From a virus: a DNA stretch of 26,952 nucleotides. Below are positions 535 to 14,512 of this stretch, piece by piece. Within the stretch, counting starts at the first letter, position 1. The number at the start of each line of letters is the position of its first letter. The position numbers were made by a program, and so were the translations under genes. The notes beneath the pieces were generated by a model. The model ran no database searches, was not told the origin of the DNA, and saw nothing but the letters and a program-made list of their open reading frames with translations. The stretch spans positions 1-26,952 of IMG/VR virus record IMGVR_UViG_3300036832_001328; one strand, given 5' to 3'.

Positions 535-1245
535 ATGACCCTCGGTGACTACCTTGCGCTGATCGGCAGCTGGCACTCCACGCGTCCGAAATATATGAAC
601 ACCATCGCGGCGCTGATCCAGCCGCTGGTGGATGCGCAGGCAATGCTGGCGCAATTGACGGCCGACTTTGATCTGGACACGGCAATCGGCATTCAGCTCG
701 ATCAGGTCGGTCAGTGGATCGGCCGCACGCGCTACATAGAGGTGCCGATCACTGGGGTGTATTTCACCTTCGACGACGGCATCACCACAGCAGGTGACAG
801 TCCACGCACTGGGTTCGACCAGGGGGTATGGTTCAACAAATACGATCCGACCGAGAAGATCGCGGCACTGGATGATGAGACATACCGCTCGGTGCTGAAG
901 CTGCAGGCAATCGCCAATCATTGGGACGGCACGCTGCCGTCGATCGCCGATGCCTTCCATCGCGTGTTCCCTGGTGCCTACATCCAGGATTTGGGCGATA
1001 CTGCAAACGGCCTTATGGCGATGGATGTGCTGCTGCCAGGACCGCTGATGTCCACCTTGATGATCCAGGTGCTGCAGCAGGACTTTCCGATCAAGCCTTC
1101 GGGTGTGTTCATCAACTTCATCGAGACGACCGTCTCCACCGAACCGATCTTCGGCTTCGATGCCGATACCGTCGATCCGCAAAATCCCGGTCCACTGGCC
1201 GGCTTCGACATCGGCAGTTGGGGCAAGATCATCTCGACGCTTTAG
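535..1245 (+). CDS. DUF2612 phage tail/baseplate protein
   Basis: 236 aa. The N-terminus (about residues 1-60) is helical. It is followed by IQLDQVGQWIGRTRYIEVPI, the recognisable core of DUF2612 proteins, which lie directly after baseplate J genes in contractile-tailed phages and take the place of P2 gpI-like tail proteins. A DDETYRSVLKLQAIANHWDG segment at about residues 102-121 is also family-like. The start ATG lies one base after the upstream stop. The C-terminus ends just before a Shine-Dalgarno (AGGGGAA at 1244-1250) that serves the tail-fibre gene. Likely role: a structural protein linking baseplate and fibre. No catalytic motif is visible. Confidence 0.8.
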   Translation: MTLGDYLALIGSWHSTRPKYMNTIAALIQPLVDAQAMLAQLTADFDLDTAIGIQLDQVGQWIGRTRYIEVPITGVYFTFDDGITTAGDSPRTGFDQGVWFNKYDPTEKIAALDDETYRSVLKLQAIANHWDGTLPSIADAFHRVFPGAYIQDLGDTANGLMAMDVLLPGPLMSTLMIQVLQQDFPIKPSGVFINFIETTVSTEPIFGFDADTVDPQNPGPLAGFDIGSWGKIISTL

Positions 1246-1256
1246 GGGAAACCACA

Positions 1257-3188
1257 GTGGCAAACGACTTCCTGACTTTCGCGGGTGATCCTGCGGCTAA
1301 TGTCATGCTACAAGCTGACTATGCTGCGACTGGTTTCACGGCGCGCATTCTCGGCTTCTCGACCGGCACCGCGCTGTCGATCCAGCTCAACAAGGTCTGG
1401 CGGCAGGCATCGCTGATCAGCACGATGATTGCCAACTTCACGGTGACCGAAACCGGCAGCAACATGCTGGATGACGGTTCGCCGGCCGGTATGACGGCAT
1501 TGCAGAACAACTTCGCTGCGGCAATCCGCACTGTGGCGCAGGGTGCGGTCGGCACAGGTTATCTGCCATTGGTCGGTGGCACATTGACCGGTCCGCTGAT
1601 CATCCAGAGCGCCAATGCACTCGATATCAAAGCACCTGTCGGCAGCCCAGCGACCCTCGCGCTGGACAGTGCAGCTGGGCAGTATTGTCAAGTCTTCTCC
1701 CGCACCAACGGCACTGTGCGCTGGTCAATCCTGCACGCCGACAACGCACCGGAGACCGGCGGCAACGCCGGTTCGAACTGGTCACTGTCGCGCTACAGCG
1801 ACGCTGGCAACTACCTCGGCACGCCGCTGTCGATCAGTCGCGCCACTGGGGTCGTCAACTTCACCAATCCGCCGACCTTGAATGGGGCGCCGTTGCCTTA
1901 TCTCTCGATCGGCGGCGGCAACCTGTCCGGTCAGATATGGTTCACAGGCGGTGCCGGCATCACCTATGCACTCGGAAGTTACAGCCATGCGATCGAATAT
2001 GGCTGGGACGGCTCGGAAATCCTTGCCTGGGTCGATGCCACCTATGTCGGCAACCTCGCCACACAGCAGTGGTCGAACAGCGTCTTGACCGGCTATCTTC
2101 CATTGTCGGGTGGCACTCTGACCGGCGCCTTGCAATGCAATGCCTCGCTGGTGGTCAACGGTGGCGCCGGCTTTAGGTCCTCAGTGTGGTTCGCCAACCT
2201 GGGTGACTTCGCCAATTTCACCGATGGCCGCTATCGCTACCGGCAATGGGCTGGGAATTGGTTTGACAACTGGGATGGCCAGACCGGCAACCGCACATGG
2301 TATTGTGCCGGTGGTCAGTCGATGCGGCTTGATGGTGGCGCGGCTCTGACCACGACTGGCATGATCCGCACCGAGAGTGCGCGCCTGATGGTGCAGCACG
2401 GCAGTGTGGCACCTTGCGTTGGCCTGTGGGCACAGTGGGCCGGCGCCGCGATGGGATCATGGTTTGACGGCAACGCGCTGTGGTTTGGCGGTGTCGATGG
2501 CAATGCCAATCCGGTCAGCGGTCTGATGGACATCGCCTTGTCCGGCGCGGTCGGCATAGCGAATACGCTTTGGGTTGGTGGTCAAATCAGTGCCGGTGGT
2601 CTGATCTATTCAAATAGCTATATCCAGGCAGCCGGCGATGTTGATGCCGGAAACAACCTTAATGTTAACGGCAACGGGTATATCCGTGGTCTGCTGGAGG
2701 TGGATAACATCCAGCACACCTATGGCAGCGGCAAAAACGTCAACCATTCCACCTTGCCGTGTTTTGCCATGGACTTCGTGGGCAACTACGCCATGGGCAT
2801 TTCGCTTGGCGTGCTCAGTGCCGCAATGACCTTTGGCTATACCGATGCCGGCGGTCAGCCGCAAGGGTGGATGGGCTTCCTCAACACGGCAGGTGTCTGG
2901 GGCGGCGCCTATTTCCAGACGCTGTCCGGTCGTGCCATCAAGAAGAACATTGAGCCATCACGCGACTTCGATAGCCTGAGCGCAATCCGCCAGGTGGAAA
3001 CCTTCAGCTATGATATGAAGGACAGCGACACCCATCGCGACTTCGGTTTCATTGCCGAAGAACTGGCCGACCTTCTGCCGGACGTGGTAAGCAACTACGA
3101 GGCAGGTCCGACCGTCGATGTGACGGCACTGATCGCGCACGCCTATCGCGCTATCGCCCAACTTGCCAGGCGCATCGACGCCATCTGA
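1257..3188 (+). CDS. Tail fibre/tailspike protein with C-terminal S74 intramolecular chaperone
   Basis: 643 aa from a GTG start at 1257, chosen because AGGGGAA sits 6 bases upstream and the gene then abuts DUF2612; the first in-frame ATG at 921 would overlap the previous gene by more than 300 bases. Two copies of a YLPLxGGTLTG motif (from about residues 102 and 280) and a degenerate third between them are typical of phage fibre shaft/collar repeats. The last 90 residues are a peptidase S74 domain: Ser557 followed five residues later by Lys562 (SGRAIKKN) matches the Ser-Lys dyad that cuts the chaperone off after trimerisation, and FGFIAEEL is also characteristic. Expected role: host receptor binding at the baseplate. 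Confidence 0.88.
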   Translation: MANDFLTFAGDPAANVMLQADYAATGFTARILGFSTGTALSIQLNKVWRQASLISTMIANFTVTETGSNMLDDGSPAGMTALQNNFAAAIRTVAQGAVGTGYLPLVGGTLTGPLIIQSANALDIKAPVGSPATLALDSAAGQYCQVFSRTNGTVRWSILHADNAPETGGNAGSNWSLSRYSDAGNYLGTPLSISRATGVVNFTNPPTLNGAPLPYLSIGGGNLSGQIWFTGGAGITYALGSYSHAIEYGWDGSEILAWVDATYVGNLATQQWSNSVLTGYLPLSGGTLTGALQCNASLVVNGGAGFRSSVWFANLGDFANFTDGRYRYRQWAGNWFDNWDGQTGNRTWYCAGGQSMRLDGGAALTTTGMIRTESARLMVQHGSVAPCVGLWAQWAGAAMGSWFDGNALWFGGVDGNANPVSGLMDIALSGAVGIANTLWVGGQISAGGLIYSNSYIQAAGDVDAGNNLNVNGNGYIRGLLEVDNIQHTYGSGKNVNHSTLPCFAMDFVGNYAMGISLGVLSAAMTFGYTDAGGQPQGWMGFLNTAGVWGGAYFQTLSGRAIKKNIEPSRDFDSLSAIRQVETFSYDMKDSDTHRDFGFIAEELADLLPDVVSNYEAGPTVDVTALIAHAYRAIAQLARRIDAI

Positions 3189-6875: not shown

Positions 6876-7547
6876 TTATACCTTGCGGCGACGGATCAGT
6901 CCAAGACCCACCAGACCGGCACCGAGCAGCATGATGCTGGCCGGCTCCGGGACAGGCGGCGGAGGTGGTGGAGGCGGAGGCGGTGGCGGACCGCCCGTAT
7001 TCACCGGGATATCCTGACTGACGAGGTTGTAGTTGTTCTGCGTCCCAACCCAGTCGATCTTGAACGCAGGCGCGTAGCCGGCCCAAGTGCCACCGGCATT
7101 CAAGGTCGCCGTGAAGTCGATGGTGATCGGTGTGCCGACCAGCGTGGTTGGGGTTGGCGGGATCGTTGTGTTGTCGAAGCAGAAGAAGTTGCCGTTGCCG
7201 TCACACCCGGTCGAGTTCAGGCCACCGACCAGGAAAGTGAAGTTCGCCGGTGCGGTAACTGACGCCGATGCCAAACCGCCGGCCGGGTTACCGAACGCAA
7301 TGGCATTGATGCCAGTGCGCCCGCCGATCGTGTCGCTGGCCGTATTCTGGCCAGAGATGGTCAGGACAAAGTTGGCGATCAACGGGTTCGCCGTGACCGT
7401 CTCGTCCAACTCGTAGGTGATGCCTTCGCAGTTGCCACCGCAGTTGCCGGCGGAGTTAGACAGTACCAGGGCAGCGTTGGCGGGCAGGGAGATAGCAGCG
7501 GCGATTGCCGCTGCTACCACTCCCAGAGTGATGGGAAGCTTGTTCAA
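6876..7547 (-). CDS. PEP-CTERM exported protein 1 (exosortase substrate)
   Basis: 223 aa from TTG 7547, chosen because a GGGGGG Shine-Dalgarno lies 6 bases upstream and the start follows the previous TGA by one base. The N-terminus (MNKLPITLGVVAAAIAAAIS then LPANA) is a Sec signal peptide with probable cleavage after ANA. The central ~150 residues are Gly/Thr/Asn-rich, beta-like, with paired Cys (CGGNCEG; CDGNGNFFC). A 12-proline tract leads into VPEPASIMLLGAGLVGLGLI and RRRKV: the PEP motif, hydrophobic helix and Arg-rich tail of PEP-CTERM domains. Known for the family: sorting by an exosortase to the outer surface or extracellular matrix in Gram-negatives. No exosortase is in the window, so the host must supply it. 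Confidence 0.88.
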   Translation of the reverse strand: MNKLPITLGVVAAAIAAAISLPANAALVLSNSAGNCGGNCEGITYELDETVTANPLIANFVLTISGQNTASDTIGGRTGINAIAFGNPAGGLASASVTAPANFTFLVGGLNSTGCDGNGNFFCFDNTTIPPTPTTLVGTPITIDFTATLNAGGTWAGYAPAFKIDWVGTQNNYNLVSQDIPVNTGGPPPPPPPPPPPPVPEPASIMLLGAGLVGLGLIRRRKV

Positions 7548-7548
7548 T

Positions 7549-8100
7549 TCAGCCCCCCTTCCGCCGCAACTGGGTGAAGCCCAGTCCCAGCAGGCCGACA
7601 CCGAGCAGGGCAAGACCTGCTGGCTCCGGAGTGGCGAGCGCCTCGGCAGTTGCCGAGAACGACCCCACTTCCTGACCAAGCTGGTTGATCGTCCAGACAA
7701 ACGTGCCCGGCGTCGCTGTGAAGCCGGTCATGTTCAACGTCGCGGGAGCATTGATCGCCAGCGAGTTTGGCGCCGGCGTGAAGCTGCCGCCAGCGTCAAC
7801 CGTGATGGTAGCGACCAGCGGTCCCTCGGTGATGGTGAACAGCAGGCCGGTGCCCACGGTCGGGCTGTAGGTGAAGGCTGGCTGGTTGACCGTCACGCAC
7901 GACAGGCAGGCGATGAACGGCGCGAATGAGCCGGTCTGGTTGGGTGCGAGGCCAGCCGGGGTCTGGCTCAGCACCTGGGTTGAGGTGAAGCTGGCGCCGC
8001 CGATGATGTTGAGTTCACTCCCGGCAGCGATCGGTCCGGCGTAGGCGGTGCCGGCGAATGCCAGCCCGATCAACGCCGTAGAGAGAAGTAAGCGCTTCAT
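7549..8100 (-). CDS. PEP-CTERM exported protein 2 (exosortase substrate)
   Basis: 183 aa. MKRLLLSTALIGLAFAGTAYA is a classic Sec signal peptide with cleavage after AYA. The body is beta-rich with one CLSC pair (about residue 64-67) and many Thr/Ser/Gly. The C-terminus is TPEPAGLALLGVGLLGLGF then TQLRRKGG: a complete PEP-CTERM tripartite sorting signal. AAGGA precedes the ATG by about 6 bases. It is the first gene of a two-gene unit; its stop is one base from the TTG of the second. The two bodies are not obviously similar, so this is a pair of different cargo proteins sharing a sorting signal rather than a clear duplication. The ~85-base leader upstream has no convincing promoter. Confidence 0.9.
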   Translation of the reverse strand: MKRLLLSTALIGLAFAGTAYAGPIAAGSELNIIGGASFTSTQVLSQTPAGLAPNQTGSFAPFIACLSCVTVNQPAFTYSPTVGTGLLFTITEGPLVATITVDAGGSFTPAPNSLAINAPATLNMTGFTATPGTFVWTINQLGQEVGSFSATAEALATPEPAGLALLGVGLLGLGFTQLRRKGG

Positions 8101-8520: not shown

Positions 8521-8702
8521 GGTCTGATCTTCGTGGCACGATCGACCTTATCCGCCAGGAGTTCGATCGTGGTCTTGCGCGGTGCAGGTGTCATCAGCGC
8601 CGCCACTGCGCTGCGCAGTTCCTCGATCTGCCGGTCTTTGCCGGCGAGTTGTGCCTTCAGGTCGATGATGGTGTCGCAGAGTTCACGTTCGGTTGGTGTC
8701 AT
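8517..8702 (-). CDS. Short coiled-coil protein, unknown
   Basis: 61 aa from ATG 8702, chosen because it overlaps the dCMP deaminase TGA as ATGA; a longer form from 8735 would overlap by 37 bases. Residues about 4-40 form a heptad-like amphipathic helix (LCDTIIDLKAQLAGKDRQIE.. LRSAV), the rest is basic. Coupled at both ends to its neighbours. No functional clue beyond likely oligomerisation. Confidence 0.65.
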   Translation of the reverse strand: MTPTERELCDTIIDLKAQLAGKDRQIEELRSAVAALMTPAPRKTTIELLADKVDRATKIRP

Positions 8703-9121
8703 TTCAGGTGTATCCACTCTCTGGTGATCGTCCATAGGTAGCAGCCTGAGGCAGCATAGTCTTCACGGAACACAATGCGACGGCAGCTGGTCGCCAGCAG
8801 CATCTTGACGCAGGACACGCAGGGTGCCGTGGTGGCATAGAGTGTCATGATGCGCTGTGGGTCCGGGCAGAATACCACGCAGTTGACTTCAGCGTGGATG
8901 GCCTCGCAGACATCCAGACCAAGGCCGGAAGTGAAACCAATTCCCTCGCATGGCGTCTCAGTGCAATGCGGAAAGCCCCGCGGCGTGCCGTTGTAGCCGG
9001 TCGACAGGATGACCCCCTCCTGGTCAACAGCCACGGCACCGACCTTGCGGCGCGCGCAGGTGCCCCTCAAGGCGGTCACCTCTGCCAGGCGCAGCCCCCA
9101 TTCGTCGCGTGATATCCTCAT
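8699..9121 (-). CDS. Deoxycytidylate (dCMP) deaminase
   Basis: 140 aa. Zinc-dependent cytidine/deoxycytidylate deaminase: catalytic HAE motif at His76-Glu78 and the PCVSC pair with Cys101 and Cys104; the CARRKVGAV segment and GYNGTPRG loop (residues 42-49) are typical of dCMP deaminases (comEB/T4 gp cd type). It converts dCMP to dUMP for thymidylate synthesis. The gene overlaps its neighbours on both sides by 4 bases, within the nucleotide-metabolism block. In a phage that modifies cytosine it would compete with the dCMP hydroxymethylase-like enzyme next door, as also happens in T4. Confidence 0.92.
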   Translation of the reverse strand: MRISRDEWGLRLAEVTALRGTCARRKVGAVAVDQEGVILSTGYNGTPRGFPHCTETPCEGIGFTSGLGLDVCEAIHAEVNCVVFCPDPQRIMTLYATTAPCVSCVKMLLATSCRRIVFREDYAASGCYLWTITREWIHLK

Positions 9122-9366
9122 GACTTTAACTTCGGACTGATGTTGACCTTAGTGTCTGGACCAATGCCGTCCTTCAGGGTTTCCGCGCAGTGGGCTTCGG
9201 TCTCACCACTGAAGATCATGATGTCGACGGGCAGACCTACATCGTCGCCGCGGATACGGATAAAGGTGTCACCCGGCTTGGCGCGGAACCTGTCCAGGTT
9301 GGCGAAACTCAGACCGAGCACCAGGATAGACTTGCCGGTGCCGTCGTGTGCAATGGCTTTGATCAT
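9118..9366 (-). CDS. Conserved-looking phage protein in the nucleotide block, unknown
   Basis: 82 aa. ATG 9366 starts one base after the stop of the thymidylate-synthase-like gene, and its TGA overlaps the next ATG. The sequence ILVLGLSFANLDRFRA and later DIMIFSGETEAHCAETL, ending IGPDTKV, resembles a family of small phage proteins of unknown function. A mixed alpha/beta fold is likely. Its tight coupling between the dCMP-type synthase and the dCMP deaminase suggests a role in the same pathway, but this is inference from position only. Confidence 0.75.
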   Translation of the reverse strand: MIKAIAHDGTGKSILVLGLSFANLDRFRAKPGDTFIRIRGDDVGLPVDIMIFSGETEAHCAETLKDGIGPDTKVNISPKLKS

Positions 9367-9367
9367 T

Positions 9368-10138
9368 TCACTTCTCCCACCAGCGGTGCGGATCACCCGG
9401 CTTACTGTCGCGCAGTGCTGTGAGATAGTCGAGCAGGTAGTTGACGTCGCTCGACCACAAGGCGCCTGGTGCCGAGCGCGATGGTGTGAACTGATATAGC
9501 AATGATGTTTTGTCCCTGGCATAGACATGGCTGGAGGCAGCCGTGATCGACAGCATGCCAGGTTCCAGGGTGGGGTAGGTATCCTGCAGGATGATAACGG
9601 CCGTGTAGGCAATGCAGGTAAAGCTGAAGATGTCGATCGGCAGGCCGAGCCAGACATCGCTGGACCGCATGAAGACGCTGAGGTGCAGCTTGTCCTGGCG
9701 TATCTTGAAGTCCATGGCAACCGTGCAGGGAATATCCTTCGACACCGGCGGGCACCGGTTCCAGGTTGTCAGGGTCGCCTGTCTGCTATCCCGGTCGGCA
9801 ACCAGAGTATCTATGACATACTTCATCTGCTGATGGATGCGCGGACCATAGGCGCCTGTCAGGAATATCCCATCGTCGGAGAACTCACGCATGCGCGGTA
9901 TCCAAGGCTCGATATCCACCAGCTTGTCGGACCCTTTCAGTATCCACAAAGCCTCACCTGCTATAACGCGGCTTTTCAGGTTGCGCTCTTTGGCAGTGAC
10001 GACAGGATAGCGCATGTCAATGGTATGCGTGACGTTCAACTGCTCGAACGTCTCGATACCTCTCGGTGATACCTTGTCGCCGTTGATGGCGCCGTCGTAT
10101 GCCCGGTGCCAGGCAAGGTCAGCGGTCAGGATTGTCAT
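9368..10138 (-). CDS. Thymidylate synthase superfamily enzyme, probable dCMP hydroxymethylase (or dCMP-specific synthase)
   Basis: 256 aa from ATG 10138 (GAGG 8 bases upstream). Landmarks: catalytic Cys138 in IPCTV, Arg158-Ser159 in FMRSSDV, Asp161, Gly165, Asp169 in GLPIDI, and His204-Val-Tyr206. In thymidylate synthases the residue aligned with Asp169 is an Asn (Asn177 in E. coli) that reads dUMP; Asp at this place is the mark of dCMP-using members such as T4 dCMP hydroxymethylase (Asp179). MRSxDV and Cys-Thr also match T4 gp42 as I recall it. The likely reaction is methylene-tetrahydrofolate plus dCMP to hydroxymethyl-dCMP; methylation of dCMP is the alternative. Neighbouring kinase, MazG-like and deaminase genes support a nucleotide pool role. 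Confidence 0.82.
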   Translation of the reverse strand: MTILTADLAWHRAYDGAINGDKVSPRGIETFEQLNVTHTIDMRYPVVTAKERNLKSRVIAGEALWILKGSDKLVDIEPWIPRMREFSDDGIFLTGAYGPRIHQQMKYVIDTLVADRDSRQATLTTWNRCPPVSKDIPCTVAMDFKIRQDKLHLSVFMRSSDVWLGLPIDIFSFTCIAYTAVIILQDTYPTLEPGMLSITAASSHVYARDKTSLLYQFTPSRSAPGALWSSDVNYLLDYLTALRDSKPGDPHRWWEK

Positions 10139-10436
10139 GGGTATATCCTCTGCTGCTGGGGTGATGGACGGCTTTCCAGTGTTCCTCGCACCAGACACCT
10201 CTCCACACTTTGTTATGGCAGCGCTTATATGGCTTCGTGTCACCGCTGAGATACTGGCATTCGCTGTGAGCCACTGGCCACACAGGTGCGGGCGAAGGAA
10301 CGGCGACCTGCACCGGCTGCTTGAGCTTCCACCTGATCGAACTGGCTGAGCGGCCAAGCCTGGCGGCGATATCTTTCGGTTTGCTGCCGCGCATCTCATT
10401 GAGTATTTTGACATCATCGTCAGACCATTCAGCCAT
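10119..10436 (-). CDS. GcrA-like transcriptional regulator
   Basis: 105 aa from ATG 10436, which overlaps the kinase stop by 8 bases. The N-terminus MAEWSDDDVKILNEMRG.. with IAARLGRSASSIRWKLK is a Myb/SANT-like helix-turn-helix as in GcrA. The C-terminal part has CQYLSGDTKPYKRCHN then WCEEHW, matching the Cys/His cluster of GcrA-family proteins (C..(P/L)xGD...C......YC..H). GcrA is a sigma70-associated cell-cycle regulator of alphaproteobacteria that responds to GANTC adenine methylation. A phage copy may redirect host transcription. The sequence is divergent, so family membership is likely but not certain. Confidence 0.65.
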   Translation of the reverse strand: MAEWSDDDVKILNEMRGSKPKDIAARLGRSASSIRWKLKQPVQVAVPSPAPVWPVAHSECQYLSGDTKPYKRCHNKVWRGVWCEEHWKAVHHPSSRGYTHDNPDR

Positions 10437-10944
10437 TGCCAAGTATCCTCTCAATGAGAGCATTGCGCTCAGATACGAATGGCCAGACGGTAATCGTAGG
10501 CAACGTGGTCATGAACTCGTTGCGATACCAACTCCACACTTTGAACAGCTGGCTGGTGTTCTCCAGATATTCGTTGCCTTTACGGCGCTGCCAGTTCTCC
10601 TTGATGGTGTCGAAGTCGGCGTCACAGCGGATTACCAGCAGCTGGGCTTTACGCTCTATGAAAGCTTCCAGGGCTTCTCCCCTTATGCCGATCCGGTCAG
10701 CGCCTCCACGGAAGGCAAGCCCGTAGGGTTTCTCGCTCAGCCATGAGCGATCCATGACGACATCGACGATACCGGACACAGCCGGGATCATCAATATCGA
10801 ATAGATGTCGATCAGGTCGTTCTCGGTCGCCTGCGGGTATGACCCATGGTGGATATACACGGCACCGATGTGCTTGGCGAGGGCAAGAGCGAGTGTGCTC
10901 TTGCCGACGCCATCAGGACCTTCGAAGATGAAAACCCGCTTCAC
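10429..10944 (-). CDS. Deoxynucleoside monophosphate kinase, thymidylate kinase-like
   Basis: 171 aa from a GTG start overlapping the upstream TGA (GTGA). P-loop GPDGVGKST at residues 9-17 and the MDRSWLSEKPYG element (DR motif plus following tyrosine) are those of thymidylate kinase-like P-loop kinases; a Glu/Arg-rich lid (IKENWQRRKGNEY) follows. It would phosphorylate dNMPs to dNDPs. In T4 the analogous gp1 also accepts hydroxymethyl-dCMP, which a cytosine-modifying phage needs because host CMP kinase does not handle it well. Its place between the MazG-like gene and the dCMP-type synthase fits that role. Confidence 0.85.
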   Translation of the reverse strand: MKRVFIFEGPDGVGKSTLALALAKHIGAVYIHHGSYPQATENDLIDIYSILMIPAVSGIVDVVMDRSWLSEKPYGLAFRGGADRIGIRGEALEAFIERKAQLLVIRCDADFDTIKENWQRRKGNEYLENTSQLFKVWSWYRNEFMTTLPTITVWPFVSERNALIERILGNG

Positions 10945-11348
10945 CGTGGACTCCCATGATCATCGATATAGACTGGGTGCTCTGGATCGTAGCCTGCCTT
11001 CTTCAGAATTTTTTCGATGTCGGGAGGCGGGCATCCTTTGGGGCGTTTGATGTCGCCGTTAGGTTGTTTCTCCTTGCGCATGTTGACCGCTTGGATTTCA
11101 GCCCATATCTTCTCCCACGGCAAGCCCATCAGCAGCACAGTGCCGAGTGCCACATAGACGATATCTGCCAGCGCATCTGCCTGCTTGGCAAGATCATGGG
11201 TAGCACCCGCCTCGATAAGCTCACGCAGTTCCTCGAACAGGAAGGTAACGCGCTTCGCCAAAAGAACCTGTGTCAGATGCACGGGTGCATCTGACACAGG
11301 TTCCTCGAACTGAACGCGGAACTTTCTGACGTCCGCGAGTTCGGTCAT
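10941..11348 (-). CDS. MazG-like NTP pyrophosphohydrolase (all-alpha NTP-PPase)
   Basis: 135 aa. ATG 11348 overlaps the stop of the first methyltransferase frame (TGATG). FEELRELIEA (Glu39, Glu40, Glu43) followed by QADALADIVYVALGT (Asp58, Asp62) is the metal-binding EExxE...D pattern of phage MazG-like/phosphoribosyl-ATP pyrophosphatase-like proteins; a KEKQPNGDIKRPKG tail is also typical of the phage group. The enzyme would hydrolyse a dNTP or NTP to the monophosphate. Next to a dCMP-type synthase it could act as the dCTPase that removes normal dCTP, as T4 gp56 does. The gene contains a 40-bp perfect palindrome at 11264-11303. Confidence 0.82.
   Translation of the reverse strand: MTELADVRKFRVQFEEPVSDAPVHLTQVLLAKRVTFLFEELRELIEAGATHDLAKQADALADIVYVALGTVLLMGLPWEKIWAEIQAVNMRKEKQPNGDIKRPKGCPPPDIEKILKKAGYDPEHPVYIDDHGSPR
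11264..11303. repeat. 40-bp palindrome (19-bp perfect arms, 2-base centre) inside the MazG-like gene
   Basis: GAACCTGTGTCAGATGCAC (11264-11282) is the exact reverse complement of GTGCATCTGACACAGGTTC (11285-11303), with GG between them. It encodes in-frame residues (about EEPVSDAPVHLTQV) that fit the family's N-terminal region, so it is not an insertion that breaks the gene. Confidence 0.95.
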
Positions 11349-11674
11349 CAAGCTGCCGCTTCCTTGCGGGGGCGACCAGGGCCACGCTTCATGACAACGG
11401 GCGGAGGTGCGGCTGCGGCCTTCTTCTTGGCCGGCACGGCGGCCTTGGCGACCGGCTTCTTCGCAGTTGTCTCGCCGTTGGCTCCCTTCTTGAGGATGCC
11501 ACGGTTCCAGCTGATGTCGGAAGCCTTGGCGCGCGATCCCTCGAACTGGGCATGCACGGCCTCGAGAATTGCATCGGTATCATCTGACCAATCCGTCAGC
11601 AGGCGGCGGATATAAGCACCTGATCCTTCGCCGTCTTCCCGCGGCGGATAAGCTGGTTGTGCGGCTTTTGCCAT
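11348..11674 (-). CDS. Possible nested gene: AT-hook/Ala-Lys-rich small DNA-binding-like protein
   Basis: An in-frame ATG at 11674, with AAGGA about 9 bases upstream and a TATAAC -10 element at 11708-11713, would give a 108-aa product: EGEGSGAYIRRLL-type domain (about residues 14-60), a Lys/Ala/Pro-rich basic linker and the AT-hook-like KRGPGRPRK. The same domain ends the 14242 gene, where it also has its own promoter and start. The residues encoded just upstream (ILYNLPLQQPEGKLH) look like translated leader, since methyltransferase 2 ends at the equivalent point. Whether nested or only fused is unresolved. Confidence 0.45.
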   Translation of the reverse strand: MAKAAQPAYPPREDGEGSGAYIRRLLTDWSDDTDAILEAVHAQFEGSRAKASDISWNRGILKKGANGETTAKKPVAKAAVPAKKKAAAAPPPVVMKRGPGRPRKEAAA

Positions 11675-12748
11675 GTGTAATTTTCCTTCTGGTTGTTGGA
11701 GGGGCAGGTTATAGAGTATTCCGGGCGGCTTGGCTATATCAAAAACAGCTGGAGACAGGTCATTAAGGCGATTATTTTTCACAAGTCCGGCATAGACCTG
11801 CCTTGCCAGCCATTCCCCTGCTTTCGGCATTACGGCGCGGTTCATCAGACCGGATATCGCGTTATAGCTGGCCTCTGGCCACAGGTAGTCGAGCGGATAG
11901 GAACAGATCGTCGCCAGCTCGTCCTGGGTCAGGCAGCGGTTCTTGGAGGGGTGATAGACCAGCAGAGGCACCGGTGCCGGTTTGTCCCATGCCAGGCGGC
12001 GCGACAGGAACGGTGGTGCATCGATGCGTTGCCCGCGCGCACCGCGTGGCGGGTCAGGGTTTCTAGCCGCATAGACCTTGTGCAGGCTCTCGCCCGGCAG
12101 GGCATGTGGCAACATCTGTATATGCGACTTCGGTGGTACAGGTATAGCGTAACCATTCCTGCGCCTGGGCAAGCCCTTGAAGGCTTCTTTCACCGTGACA
12201 GGTCTGTCAAAGTCCGGTATCTCCCATGGAATGACGACTTTGTGGAAGACGTAGAAGATGCGCTGACGTGACTGAGGAATGCCGAGCCATTGAGCATTGT
12301 GCACGACAATGGTTGTAGCGAAGCCATAAGGTTCGGCCTTACTGATCAGCTCGTCGACATGCGCCCTTCCCTTGGTGAATGACTGAGGGACCGACTCGAT
12401 CGCCAGCACATCCGGATCGACGACATCCATGGCATAGTTGAAGATGTCATGGTGTGCCTGTAGCCTCGGGTCGAGGTGCCAGTTATGTGCCTTGCTGGCA
12501 GTGTTGGCACCAGACCAGATCGCGCAGGGTGGGTTAGCATACATGAACTTGACAAGACCATGCCAGGAGGTCGGCCACTTCGCCGGGCCGCCGAGGTAGA
12601 TCGGCATGCCTGGAAAGTTCAGGTTTACTACGTTGCTGCCATAGCCGTCATGCTCCAGATGCCCGACCACGTTAAAGTGCTCAGCTACACCTAGGGTAAA
12701 GCCTCCGGCATAGATATGCGCACCAAGAGCGTTAATCAGTGAAGGCAT
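11348..12748 (-). CDS. C5-cytosine DNA methyltransferase 1 with C-terminal DNA-binding-like extension
   Basis: 466 aa from ATG 12748 (GGGGG 5-6 bases upstream; overlaps the previous gene by 17 bases). Residues 1-355 are a C5-methyltransferase: divergent SAM motif GAHIYAGGFTLGV (about 9-21), motif IV ANPPC with catalytic Cys75, motif VI ESVP with Glu118, motif VIII SRQRIFYV and motif IX LTQDELATICSYP. The closest relative is the adjacent methyltransferase 2. From residue 359 the frame continues into a separate domain (EGSGAYIRRLL ... FEGSRAKASDISWNRG), then a Lys/Ala-rich stretch and an AT-hook-like KRGPGRPRK. The join crosses a promoter-like sequence and an internal ATG, so the extension may also be made alone. 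Expected role: modification of phage DNA, perhaps against restriction. Confidence 0.85.
   Translation of the reverse strand: MPSLINALGAHIYAGGFTLGVAEHFNVVGHLEHDGYGSNVVNLNFPGMPIYLGGPAKWPTSWHGLVKFMYANPPCAIWSGANTASKAHNWHLDPRLQAHHDIFNYAMDVVDPDVLAIESVPQSFTKGRAHVDELISKAEPYGFATTIVVHNAQWLGIPQSRQRIFYVFHKVVIPWEIPDFDRPVTVKEAFKGLPRRRNGYAIPVPPKSHIQMLPHALPGESLHKVYAARNPDPPRGARGQRIDAPPFLSRRLAWDKPAPVPLLVYHPSKNRCLTQDELATICSYPLDYLWPEASYNAISGLMNRAVMPKAGEWLARQVYAGLVKNNRLNDLSPAVFDIAKPPGILYNLPLQQPEGKLHMAKAAQPAYPPREDGEGSGAYIRRLLTDWSDDTDAILEAVHAQFEGSRAKASDISWNRGILKKGANGETTAKKPVAKAAVPAKKKAAAAPPPVVMKRGPGRPRKEAAA
11708..11736 (-). promoter_or_regulatory. Putative sigma70-type promoter for the nested AT-hook product
   Basis: On the - strand: -35 TAGCCA (11736-11731), 17-base spacer, -10 TATAAC (11713-11708). 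The -35 is weak (4 of 6), the -10 is identical to that of the 14280 promoter, which drives the same domain. Confidence 0.4.
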
Positions 12749-13778
12749 GATGACCCCCTGGCGGCTCAGCTGCATTGAAGATCATCGGAGACAGGTCATT
12801 GATACGGTTGTTGGTCTGCAGGCTCTGGCTGATCTGGAGCGCCAGCCACTCGGCGGTCTTCGGCATGATACCTCTATTCATGTAATGCGTGACATTAGCC
12901 TGACTGCTTCTGACCGGCCAGTGGTAGTCGGTTGGGTAGGAGCAGATCGTGGCAAGTTCGTCCTGGGTCAGACGGCGATGCTCGGTAGGGTGATAAACTT
13001 CCAACGGGACCGGTGCCGGCTTATCCCATGATAGGCGCTGGTGCAGAAAGGAGGGGGCACCTATGTGGGTGCCATTGGGGTTGCGCACTGCCACAGGGGT
13101 GATTTTGTAATAAGTCTGCCGGAGCTTGCCGCCTGGTGGGGTTAGCTTCAGGGACCTCATGATGCGGGGCATAAGGACTGGCAGCTTGTAGCCATTCGAC
13201 GCCCCATTGAGCTTGCTGAAAGCCTGGCGCACAGTCGTAGGCGCTGTGAAGTCCGGCATACTCCACGGGATTACTACCTTATGGAAGATGTAGAAAATGC
13301 GCGGCCGGTTCTGCGGCACCCCAAACCACATGGCATTGTGCCTGACCGCGGTCATGGCATAGCCATAGGTTTCGGCCCGGATGATCTGACTGATGATGTA
13401 GCGCCTTCCCTTGGTGAAGGAAAGCGGCACGGACTCGATCGCCAGGACGTCAGGAGCGACCACATCCATGGCGTAGTTGAAGATATCGTCGTGCTGGTCG
13501 AGCCTGGGGTCCAGGTGCCAACGGTCGGCCTTGCTTGTCTTGGAGGCGCCTGACCAGATAGCGCAGGGTGGGTTGGCGAAGATGAAGCGGGGCGCTTCAT
13601 GCCAAAAAGCCGGCCACTTTGCCGGACCCCCGGTATAGATCGGGAGGTCCGGAAAGTTGAGCCGGACAACATTCGAACCGTAGCCTTCATGCTCTAAGTG
13701 GGCAAGCACTTTGAAGTGCCTGCCCACCCCGAGTGTGAAGCCTCCGGCGTAGATGTGGGCGCCGAGGGCCGGGATCAT
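12732..13778 (-). CDS. C5-cytosine DNA methyltransferase 2
   Basis: 348 aa from ATG 13778, which overlaps the TGA of the upstream gene (ATGA). Motifs: GAHIYAGGFTLGV (SAM binding, residues 6-18), ANPPC with catalytic Cys72, ESVP with Glu115, QNRPRIFYIFHK (motif VIII), and LTQDELATICSYPTDY (motif IX), ending in the MNRGIMPKTAEWLALQI motif X region. It is clearly paralogous to methyltransferase 1 along its whole length (shared NSNVV/GYGSNVV, IYxGGPAKWP, DIFNYAMDVV, WDKPAPVPL segments). The ~50-100 residue stretch before motif IX, where target recognition occurs, is the most divergent, so the two probably have different target sites. No partner restriction enzyme is adjacent. Confidence 0.87.
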   Translation of the reverse strand: MIPALGAHIYAGGFTLGVGRHFKVLAHLEHEGYGSNVVRLNFPDLPIYTGGPAKWPAFWHEAPRFIFANPPCAIWSGASKTSKADRWHLDPRLDQHDDIFNYAMDVVAPDVLAIESVPLSFTKGRRYIISQIIRAETYGYAMTAVRHNAMWFGVPQNRPRIFYIFHKVVIPWSMPDFTAPTTVRQAFSKLNGASNGYKLPVLMPRIMRSLKLTPPGGKLRQTYYKITPVAVRNPNGTHIGAPSFLHQRLSWDKPAPVPLEVYHPTEHRRLTQDELATICSYPTDYHWPVRSSQANVTHYMNRGIMPKTAEWLALQISQSLQTNNRINDLSPMIFNAAEPPGGHHAFTD

Positions 13779-14242
13779 GCCGCTGCGGGCGGCACCCACC
13801 CCTCGTCCTTCTTCAGCTTGCCCTTGTTCCAGCTGACGTCGGACGGGCCGGCCTTGGACCCCTCGAACTGGCTGTGGACGGCTGCCAGGATCGCCTGGGT
13901 GTCGACGTAGCCGGCCTTCAGCAGGCGGCGGATGTAGGCGCCCGACCCCTCACCCTCCTGCACCTTGGGCAGGGTCGAGCCGTTGGCCTTGGCCTTGACG
14001 GTCTTCAGAGGGACGACCTTGGCGCCACCCTTGGGCGCGGCCACGACCTTGACGGCAGGGGCGGCGACTTCCTTCAGGGCAGGGGCCTTCGGGGCGACCT
14101 TGGCGCGCAGGGCGCCGATCTTCTTGGCAGCAGCAGCGGGAACCATTTCAGTCTCTCCAATTTGAGCATCCATTGCCTTCGCGGACTTCCGCGCGGCGGC
14201 GAGTTCCTTGACCGCGAGAGCGGTCGCCTTCTTGGTAGCCAT
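13775..14242 (-). CDS. Basic Ala/Lys-rich nucleoid-like protein with shared C-terminal domain
   Basis: 155 aa from the internal ATG 14242, supported by AAAGGAAC 8 bases upstream and a near-consensus promoter (TTTACA-17-TATAAC). Residues 1-90 are rich in Ala, Lys, Val and Pro (histone H1-like low-complexity tail: ALAVKELAAARKSAKA, then AAPAVKVVAAPKGGAK). Residues about 93-145 are a compact domain (EGEGSGAYIRRLLKAG ... ILAAVHSQFEGSKAGPSDVS ... WNKGKLKK) found again at the C-terminus of methyltransferase 1. DNA binding or condensation is a reasonable guess from charge and composition. It precedes methyltransferase 2 with a 4-base overlap. Confidence 0.6.
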   Translation of the reverse strand: MATKKATALAVKELAAARKSAKAMDAQIGETEMVPAAAAKKIGALRAKVAPKAPALKEVAAPAVKVVAAPKGGAKVVPLKTVKAKANGSTLPKVQEGEGSGAYIRRLLKAGYVDTQAILAAVHSQFEGSKAGPSDVSWNKGKLKKDEGWVPPAAA

Positions 14243-14512
14243 TGCCTTGTTCCTTTCACTAGGCGGTTTCGATGTGGTGGTTATAGCAATTTCCTCATTG
14301 GCTGTAAAGGACAAAATGAAAAATTCGGCATCTTTTTTTGTCTCAAATCTGAGAATATCTCCCTTCGGATCGCGGACATTGAGGTTATGCCCGTCGAGGG
14401 TCAGGTCGACCACGAAGAAAGTGCCGCCAACCAGGGACGACATGATCTGGAACCGGTCGGCAATGATAGGAGAGGCGTAGCCGCCGGGATTGATTTGTGG
14501 TTTGTAGGTCAT
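13775..14512 (-). CDS. Two-part protein: unknown N-terminal domain fused to Ala/Lys-rich DNA-binding-like protein
   Basis: The open frame gives 245 aa from ATG 14512, which overlaps the HicA-like stop (ATGA). Residues 1-80 are a compact alpha/beta domain (FQIMSSLVGGTFFVVDLTLD; FETKKDAEFFILSF) of unknown type. Residues 81-90 (SKPPSERNKA) are the translation of a ribosome-binding region, after which a second, independently promoted start at 14242 begins an Ala/Lys/Val-rich basic protein. An out-of-frame TAG-TGA pair lies just before that second start, so a single-base change could have joined two genes, or the fusion is natural. Confidence 0.55.
   Translation of the reverse strand: MTYKPQINPGGYASPIIADRFQIMSSLVGGTFFVVDLTLDGHNLNVRDPKGDILRFETKKDAEFFILSFTANEEIAITTTSKPPSERNKAMATKKATALAVKELAAARKSAKAMDAQIGETEMVPAAAAKKIGALRAKVAPKAPALKEVAAPAVKVVAAPKGGAKVVPLKTVKAKANGSTLPKVQEGEGSGAYIRRLLKAGYVDTQAILAAVHSQFEGSKAGPSDVSWNKGKLKKDEGWVPPAAA
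14280..14308 (-). promoter_or_regulatory. Strong sigma70-type promoter inside the 245-aa frame
   Basis: On the - strand: -35 TTTACA (14308-14303), 17-base spacer, -10 TATAAC (14285-14280), 38 bases before the ATG at 14242. It is the closest to consensus of the promoters in this window. Confidence 0.75.

Follow-up and report, generated by a model that had tools for sequence, protein, structure and literature searches.

Introduction

Cytosine modification in phage DNA determines which restriction and CRISPR defences work. In phage T4, replacement of cytosine involves the deoxycytidine monophosphate (dCMP) hydroxymethylase gp42, the deoxynucleoside monophosphate (dNMP) kinase gp1, the deoxycytidine triphosphatase (dCTPase) gp56 and the dCMP deaminase cd. 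Here we describe a phage operon that joins a cassette of this known kind to two tandem genes, MT1 and MT2, with the fold of DNA cytosine C5-methyltransferases (C5-MTases). The operon is encoded by IMG/VR record IMGVR_UViG_3300036832_001328, and the window that we analysed is this whole record of 26,952 bases, which is classed as linear, is possibly a fragment and probably lacks part of the genome.

Several described systems bear on this locus. DNA of Stenotrophomonas phage AXL3 withstands 35 of 37 restriction enzymes; the two that do cut it, TasI and Tru1I, have A/T-only sites (PMC7504290). This is the pattern that full replacement of cytosine would be expected to produce. In 2021, the MetaGPA study reported that thymidylate synthase (TS) homologues with Asp177 co-occur with PF01503 and PF00383 domains on contigs with modified cytosine (PMC8670742). 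Xanthomonas phage Xp12 contains 5-methylcytosine (5mC) in its DNA, and phage DLP4 is a member of the Xp12 group (PMC9206674, PMC7653180) whose operon includes a neighbouring dihydrofolate reductase (DHFR) gene (PMC9206674). Finally, SpCmoX is a phage cytosine carboxymethyltransferase in which R350 holds the carboxyl group of carboxy-S-adenosyl-L-methionine (Cx-SAM); the wild-type enzyme, which has Arg at the position of Asn304 in M.HhaI, accepts only Cx-SAM.

The cassette is part of a longer operon

Six small genes lie at 8699-11348 on the minus strand, overlapping or abutting one another with all frames intact, and four of them encode nucleotide enzymes. In the order of transcription, their products are a MazG/PRA-PH protein, a thymidylate kinase (TMK)-like kinase, a helix-turn-helix (HTH) protein, a TS homologue, an 82-aa orphan and a dCMP deaminase. 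From their coordinates, the successive junctions are overlaps of 4, 35 and 20 bp, a 1-bp gap and an overlap of 4 bp. A sequence-only reading of this DNA had described a tightly packed cassette with these limits, and its genes are real, but the right border cuts off what we consider the most interesting part: the MazG gene shares 1-4 bp with the upstream MT1 gene (11348-12748), which in turn overlaps MT2 (12732-13799). The operon reaches beyond 11348 into these two tandem C5-methyltransferase-fold genes, and the joining of tandem enzymes with NPPC and Arg motifs to a predicted hydroxymethylation cassette of a known kind is what is new here. The features are as follows.

13775..14512, minus strand: 245-aa protein with the ~55-aa tail domain of MT1 type (phrog_17205, E 9.8e-4)
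12732..13799, minus strand: MT2, C5-methyltransferase fold, tandem paralogue (PF00145, E 1.2e-12; AlphaFold2 model)
11348..12748, minus strand: MT1, C5-methyltransferase fold with a ~55-aa C-terminal tail domain (PF00145, E 8.3e-11; family profile against 8YF3)
10941..11348, minus strand: MazG/PRA-PH nucleoside triphosphate (NTP) pyrophosphohydrolase, predicted dCTPase (PF01503, E 2.7e-17; DR2231 relative, E 2.6e-7)
10429..10944, minus strand: TMK-like P-loop kinase, predicted 5-hydroxymethyl-dCMP (5hm-dCMP)/dNMP kinase, 171 aa (phrog_761 thymidylate kinase, E 1.4e-12)
10119..10463, minus strand: small HTH protein, lineage-specific insert between kinase and hydroxymethylase (phrog_323, E 1.8e-5)
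9368..10138, minus strand: predicted dCMP hydroxymethylase of the TS family, 256 aa (PF00303, E 4.2e-18; active-site residues)
9118..9366, minus strand: 82-aa protein, function not assigned, passenger (no Pfam, PHROGs or NCBIfam match)
8699..9121, minus strand: dCMP deaminase, 140 aa (PF00383, E 6.2e-16; phrog_174, E 8e-34; PDB 1vq2)

Active-site residues predict a dCMP hydroxymethylase

The nearest PDB relative of the TS homologue is MilA, a CMP 5-hydroxymethylase. Residues E62, Y97, D135, C138, T139 and D169 of the window protein correspond to E60, Y96, D145, C148, the Thr after the Cys and D179 of T4 gp42. D169 sits at the position of N177 in E. coli TS and D179 in T4, where Asp confers selection of cytosine (PMC8670742). 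D135 sits three residues before the catalytic Cys at the position of T4 D145, which activates the hydroxylating water to yield a hydroxymethyl rather than a methyl group, and a D145N substitution abolishes activity (PMC6400193). Among 152 relatives, catalytic C138 and D135 are invariant, and the two aspartates are kept in all or all but one. Based on these residues, the TS homologue is predicted to be a dCMP hydroxymethylase of the T4 type.

Two other activities were considered for this protein. The first is an Xp12-type dCMP methylase, which would place 5mC in the phage DNA. The Xp12 group has a similar layout of deaminase, TS, pyrophosphohydrolase, helicase and DNA polymerase genes (PMC9206674), and Asp177 alone leads to dCMP methylation in an engineered E. 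coli TS (PMC8670742). We used DLP4 to stand in for this group, with its base taken from group membership since 5mC is known for Xp12. In DLP4, the first decisive position is Asp, but the residue three before the Cys is Asn and the one following the Cys is Pro. The window protein agrees with T4 at both of the latter sites, with Asp and Thr, and work on T4 has tied this Asp (Asp145) to hydroxylation. Furthermore, a DHFR is needed where folate becomes oxidised, and no DHFR gene was found beside the window cassette. A dCMP methylase is therefore improbable.

The second is that dCMP deaminase, TS, TMK and dUTPase activities only expand the pool of deoxythymidine triphosphate (dTTP), so that no modified base is made. 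This explanation fits the names of the homologues and is the AXL3 authors' own reading (PMC7504290). However, Asp rather than Asn at position 177 disfavours dUMP as a substrate, and AXL3 DNA resists every enzyme tested whose site contains G/C, which leaves very little room for a role confined to dTTP supply.

The enzyme set recurs among viral loci

When viral contigs were scanned with one sequence at a time, either the hydroxymethylase or MT2, no match was obtained, and alignments were needed. An alignment-based scan of viral contigs yielded 80 hydroxymethylase loci, which together with four annotated phages comprise a set of 84. A MazG gene was present in 68 of these loci, a kinase in 58 and a deaminase in 80. 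Because the enzyme set recurs in this manner, the grouping of these enzymes in the window reflects more than chance. Confirmed hydroxymethylase matches occurred in only 229 of 2.9 million contigs. A tblastn search of 50,697 annotated phage genome records found the window kinase, which has Pfam matches below threshold only, in just five, AXL3 among them, and each of the five carries a hydroxymethylase-type TS. The best PDB match of the deaminase is T4 dCMP deaminase (1vq2, E 6.7e-12). The MazG-like protein contains the PRA-PH/MazG domain of the all-alpha NTP-PPase superfamily and is a predicted dCTPase. The isolates HTVC200P and AB434P2 have a TS homologue with no annotated cassette of the window kind around it.

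The cassette is real, but its kind is already known. The sequence-only reading had emphasised T4-like logic in an unrelated phage with a family A polymerase. The polymerase assignment is correct; the combination is not new, because AXL3, DLP4 and others share this layout (PMC9206674) and MetaGPA had linked the domains. In the window, the minus strand upstream of the cassette encodes, in order, the family A polymerase, a Cas4-like nuclease, a VRR-type nuclease, a helicase, many small genes, the 245-aa protein, MT2 and MT1, where the polymerase, nuclease and helicase names reflect similarity to annotated genes of AXL3 and ctUtU524.

MT1 and MT2 resemble, but depart from, a carboxymethyltransferase

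The C5-METHYLTRANSFERASE-fold genes MT1 and MT2 encode proteins that are 61% identical to each other and in which Cys, Glu and Arg, the catalytic residues of DNA C5-methyltransferases, are retained. A search based only on this family returned 80 loci, and the three catalytic residues are intact in all 80 homologues. Within family alignment A2, NPPC, Glu, Arg and the motif X Arg are invariant. Both window proteins have Arg at the M.HhaI Asn304 position, which is Arg or Lys in 73 of 78 readable homologues, and both have NPPC rather than SPPC, as do 76/80 homologues. A hydroxymethylase-type TS is near in 65/79 loci, a linkage that the rarity of hydroxymethylase-bearing contigs (the 229 noted above) indicates is not due to chance.

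A PDB search with the MT2 sequence alone was uninformative, but the family profile matched SpCmoX best (8YF3, E 2.8e-15), with MT2 R309 aligned to SpCmoX R350. An AlphaFold2 model of MT2, with a predicted local distance difference test (pLDDT) score of 79, also returned 8YF3 among its top structural matches (Z 24.6). These matches, together with the invariant Arg309 and the Arg/Lys in 73/78 homologues, raise the possibility that MT1 and MT2 are CmoX-type carboxymethyltransferases that use host Cx-SAM to form 5-carboxymethylcytosine at sites left unmodified. However, they are coupled to a cassette that is expected to remove their substrate, unmodified cytosine. No CmoA gene was found in the window, and none (TIGR00740) was detected in 40 related records of up to 88 kb, several of which are fragments and for which a host enzyme could serve. 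Because of NPPC in place of SPPC and the 0/40 records with CmoA, we did not file MT1 and MT2 as CmoX enzymes, and we regard this activity as doubtful.

C5-MTases are frequent in phages, and with their catalytic Cys, Glu and Arg intact, MT1 and MT2 could instead be ordinary 5mC methyltransferases that protect early or residual unmodified DNA, apart from hydroxymethylation chemistry. Yet the Asn of motif X is replaced by Arg/Lys, and SpCmoX with Arg takes only Cx-SAM. The tight linkage to the cassette and the same-slot exchange with another methyltransferase described below also argue against this role, which we judge to be rather unlikely.

A tail domain of ~55 aa, with the consensus GSGAYIRRLL..ILxxVHxQFxGSKAxxSDVxWNKxKLKK, was found at 11348-11700 and 13775-13950 on the minus strand of the window. 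It occurs on C5-MTase-fold proteins, in one fusion with a glycosyltransferase-like protein and in the separate 245-aa protein, with further examples in loci L017, L040, L043 and L058, and is perhaps DNA-binding. Separately, C5-MTase homologues in L138, L145, L150 and L151 combine QPPC with Lys at the position of Asn304. In these loci, a divergent TS and deaminase are encoded on the opposite strand, and the homologues form a possible separate subgroup.

Sister cassettes exchange candidate tailoring enzymes

In the slot where the window carries its C5-MTase-fold genes, most other cassettes have a Methyltransf_23 protein. This protein is conserved in 63/85 hydroxymethylase cassettes (e.g., L045:3673-4497 and AXL3 gp31, L013:6617-7441) and is a candidate O-methyltransferase for hydroxymethylcytosine (hmC). 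We also considered it as CmoA and rejected that assignment, as it has no TIGR00740 match and is only weakly similar to UbiG and other methyltransferases. In a non-redundant set of 90 loci that extend far enough upstream, 43 carried the Methyltransf_23 protein alone, 37 carried the C5 type alone and 5 carried both. On a hydroxymethylase tree, exchange between the two types requires at least 8 changes; this quick tree was made without bootstrap and includes a few long-branch TS rows whose kinship is doubtful, and the number of changes required falls when only well-supported branches are counted (to 3 for the C5 label).

Within or near the cassette of 45 C5-type loci is a protein of ~346 aa belonging to phrog_14998, which is listed as 'unknown function' (L112:9403-10443, L082:4338-5378 and further loci among L097-L176). 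The best match of its AlphaFold2 model (pLDDT 85) was T4 beta-glucosyltransferase (Foldseek E 9e-6, Z 17.6), with other GT-B enzymes close behind, and we predict from this model a GT-B glycosyltransferase nearest to the T4 enzyme. Distant homologues occur in phages of Aeromonas, Gordonia and Providencia, among others, and a small number of these homologues are annotated as glycosyltransferases. In the non-redundant set, the phrog_14998 protein never occurs together with the Methyltransf_23 protein. A nucleotide-sugar dehydrogenase gene was found in 22 loci, all with the phrog_14998 protein. This co-occurrence and the resemblance to T4 beta-glucosyltransferase suggest that phages with phrog_14998 incorporate hmC into DNA and then coat it with sugar.

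Two inserted genes are passengers

The 82-aa protein, which the sequence-only reading had proposed as a new component, matched nothing in Pfam, PHROGs, NCBIfam or the 50,697 phage records. None of the 84 cassette loci carries it, and its relatives occur on 9 viral contigs, none of which shows a cassette in the contig sequence. In L017, the closest relative, the hydroxymethylase gene directly adjoins the deaminase gene. We therefore rejected the 82-aa protein as a cassette component. The same reading had placed a GcrA-like regulator in the middle of the cassette. An HTH gene does lie between the kinase and TS genes, but its product has a phrog_323 match, only weak HTH matches and no match to Pfam GcrA up to E 0.1. 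The gene recurs in 1/84 loci (L017 only), and AXL3 lacks the insert and has a longer kinase instead (327 aa compared to 171 in the window). Both proteins are passengers, and a part for the regulator in the logic of the cassette is not supported.

Elsewhere in the window, two proteins encoded at 6876-8100 on the minus strand have C-termini that resemble PEP-CTERM sorting signals (PEPASIMLLGAGLVGLGLIRRRK; PEPAGLALLGVGLLGLGFTQLRRK), which is unusual for a phage. A tail-fibre protein at 921-3188 (plus strand) is similar to one at L003:4094-6184 (minus strand), a contig with the 82-aa gene, which suggests related phages or hosts.

Discussion

The T4-like logic that had been proposed for this cassette is supported by the active-site residues, by the conserved gene set and by the resistance to restriction seen in AXL3, a phage that carries the same set. 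We consider it likely that the locus encodes nucleotide-level replacement of cytosine through hydroxymethylation, phosphorylation, removal of dCTP and deamination of dCMP. The TS homologue would transfer a hydroxymethyl group onto dCMP with methylene-tetrahydrofolate as donor, and the TMK-like kinase would phosphorylate 5hm-dCMP on the way to its triphosphate. The MazG-like enzyme may convert dCTP (and/or dUTP) to the monophosphate, which would remove the competitor and feed the hydroxymethylase, and the deaminase would channel excess dCMP into dUMP for dTMP synthesis. The family A polymerase would incorporate 5-hydroxymethyl-deoxycytidine (5hm-dC). MT1 and MT2, transcribed just before the cassette, could later act on the DNA as tailoring enzymes, a step that in sister cassettes may fall to a methyltransferase of the small-molecule type or to a beta-glucosyltransferase-like enzyme. 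The gene identities, active-site residues, conserved gene set and exchange of tailoring candidates were computed; each substrate and product, the extent of replacement and the role in tailoring are our inference.

Four points weigh against this pathway. First, the T4 signature residue Ser94 is Gly in the window protein, with a Thr one residue earlier, and Gly occupies this position in 144/152 relatives; Ser94 is not absolutely required, because T4 S94A retains ~25% activity (PMC6400193). Second, specificity of the MazG-like enzyme for dCTP is not readable from sequence. Third, no phrog_14998-family glycosyltransferase or other recognised tailoring enzyme was found in the record, which probably holds an incomplete genome. 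Fourth, a C5-methyltransferase fold adjoins genes for a base whose C5 would already be substituted.

The last point makes the chemistry of MT1 and MT2 puzzling, because the C5 of the expected base is occupied. Their exchange with other tailoring candidates favours action on hmC in role but not in chemistry, and a tailoring role on hmC is our leading guess, held tentatively. C5-MTase chemistry on hmC is possible: in vitro, an engineered C5-methyltransferase attaches thiols to this base. We know of no natural enzyme that replaces or decorates the hydroxymethyl group of hmC by this chemistry. It is conceivable, but unlikely, that the NPPC/Arg proteins represent a new class of hmC tailoring enzyme that flips the base, attaches its Cys to C6 and replaces or decorates the hydroxymethyl group rather than alkylating C5. 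On that speculative scheme, the motif X Arg might hold a carboxylate-bearing donor or nucleophile, a detail to which we attach similarly little confidence.

The locus thus pairs an hmC cassette with C5-MTase-fold enzymes that are expected to have no substrate in such DNA, and solving this paradox would uncover either mixed modification or new chemistry. Comparison among loci also yields a testable candidate hmC glycosyltransferase family, phrog_14998, and a single cassette slot that exchanges tailoring candidates.

Compared to known systems, the window is predicted to carry out the same four reactions as T4, and its predicted hydroxymethylase has two aspartates, Cys, Thr, Tyr and Glu in common with gp42. 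Unlike T4, the window has clustered overlapping genes, a TMK-like kinase, Gly in place of Ser94 and a family A polymerase, and its record lacks a glucosyltransferase and has an operon with C5-MTase-fold genes. AXL3 and Pseudoxanthomonas phage PW916 share the MazG-kinase-TS-deaminase order of the window, with proteins 36-42% identical, and the family A polymerase, Cas4-like nuclease and helicase are likewise present in AXL3. Both differ in having a Methyltransf_23 protein in the C5-MTase slot and neither the 82-aa nor the HTH insert, and the AXL3 kinase is longer. Xanthomonas phage Xp15 and the MetaGPA contigs with 5hmC and a carbamoyltransferase keep TS, pyrophosphohydrolase and deaminase genes close together, as in the window; their tailoring enzyme, the carbamoyltransferase, is absent from the window. 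Phages Xp12, DLP4 and AXL1 also group their TS, deaminase, pyrophosphohydrolase and polymerase genes within a single region, although DLP4 differs by the Asn three residues before the Cys and the DHFR in its operon. Lastly, SpCmoX of Synechococcus phage S-B43 (8YF3) shares with MT1 and MT2 the C5-MTase fold, the Cys/Glu/Arg residues and Arg at the Asn304 position, whereas MT1 and MT2 have NPPC instead of SPPC, have no CmoA in the 40 related records and are tied to a hydroxymethylase cassette.

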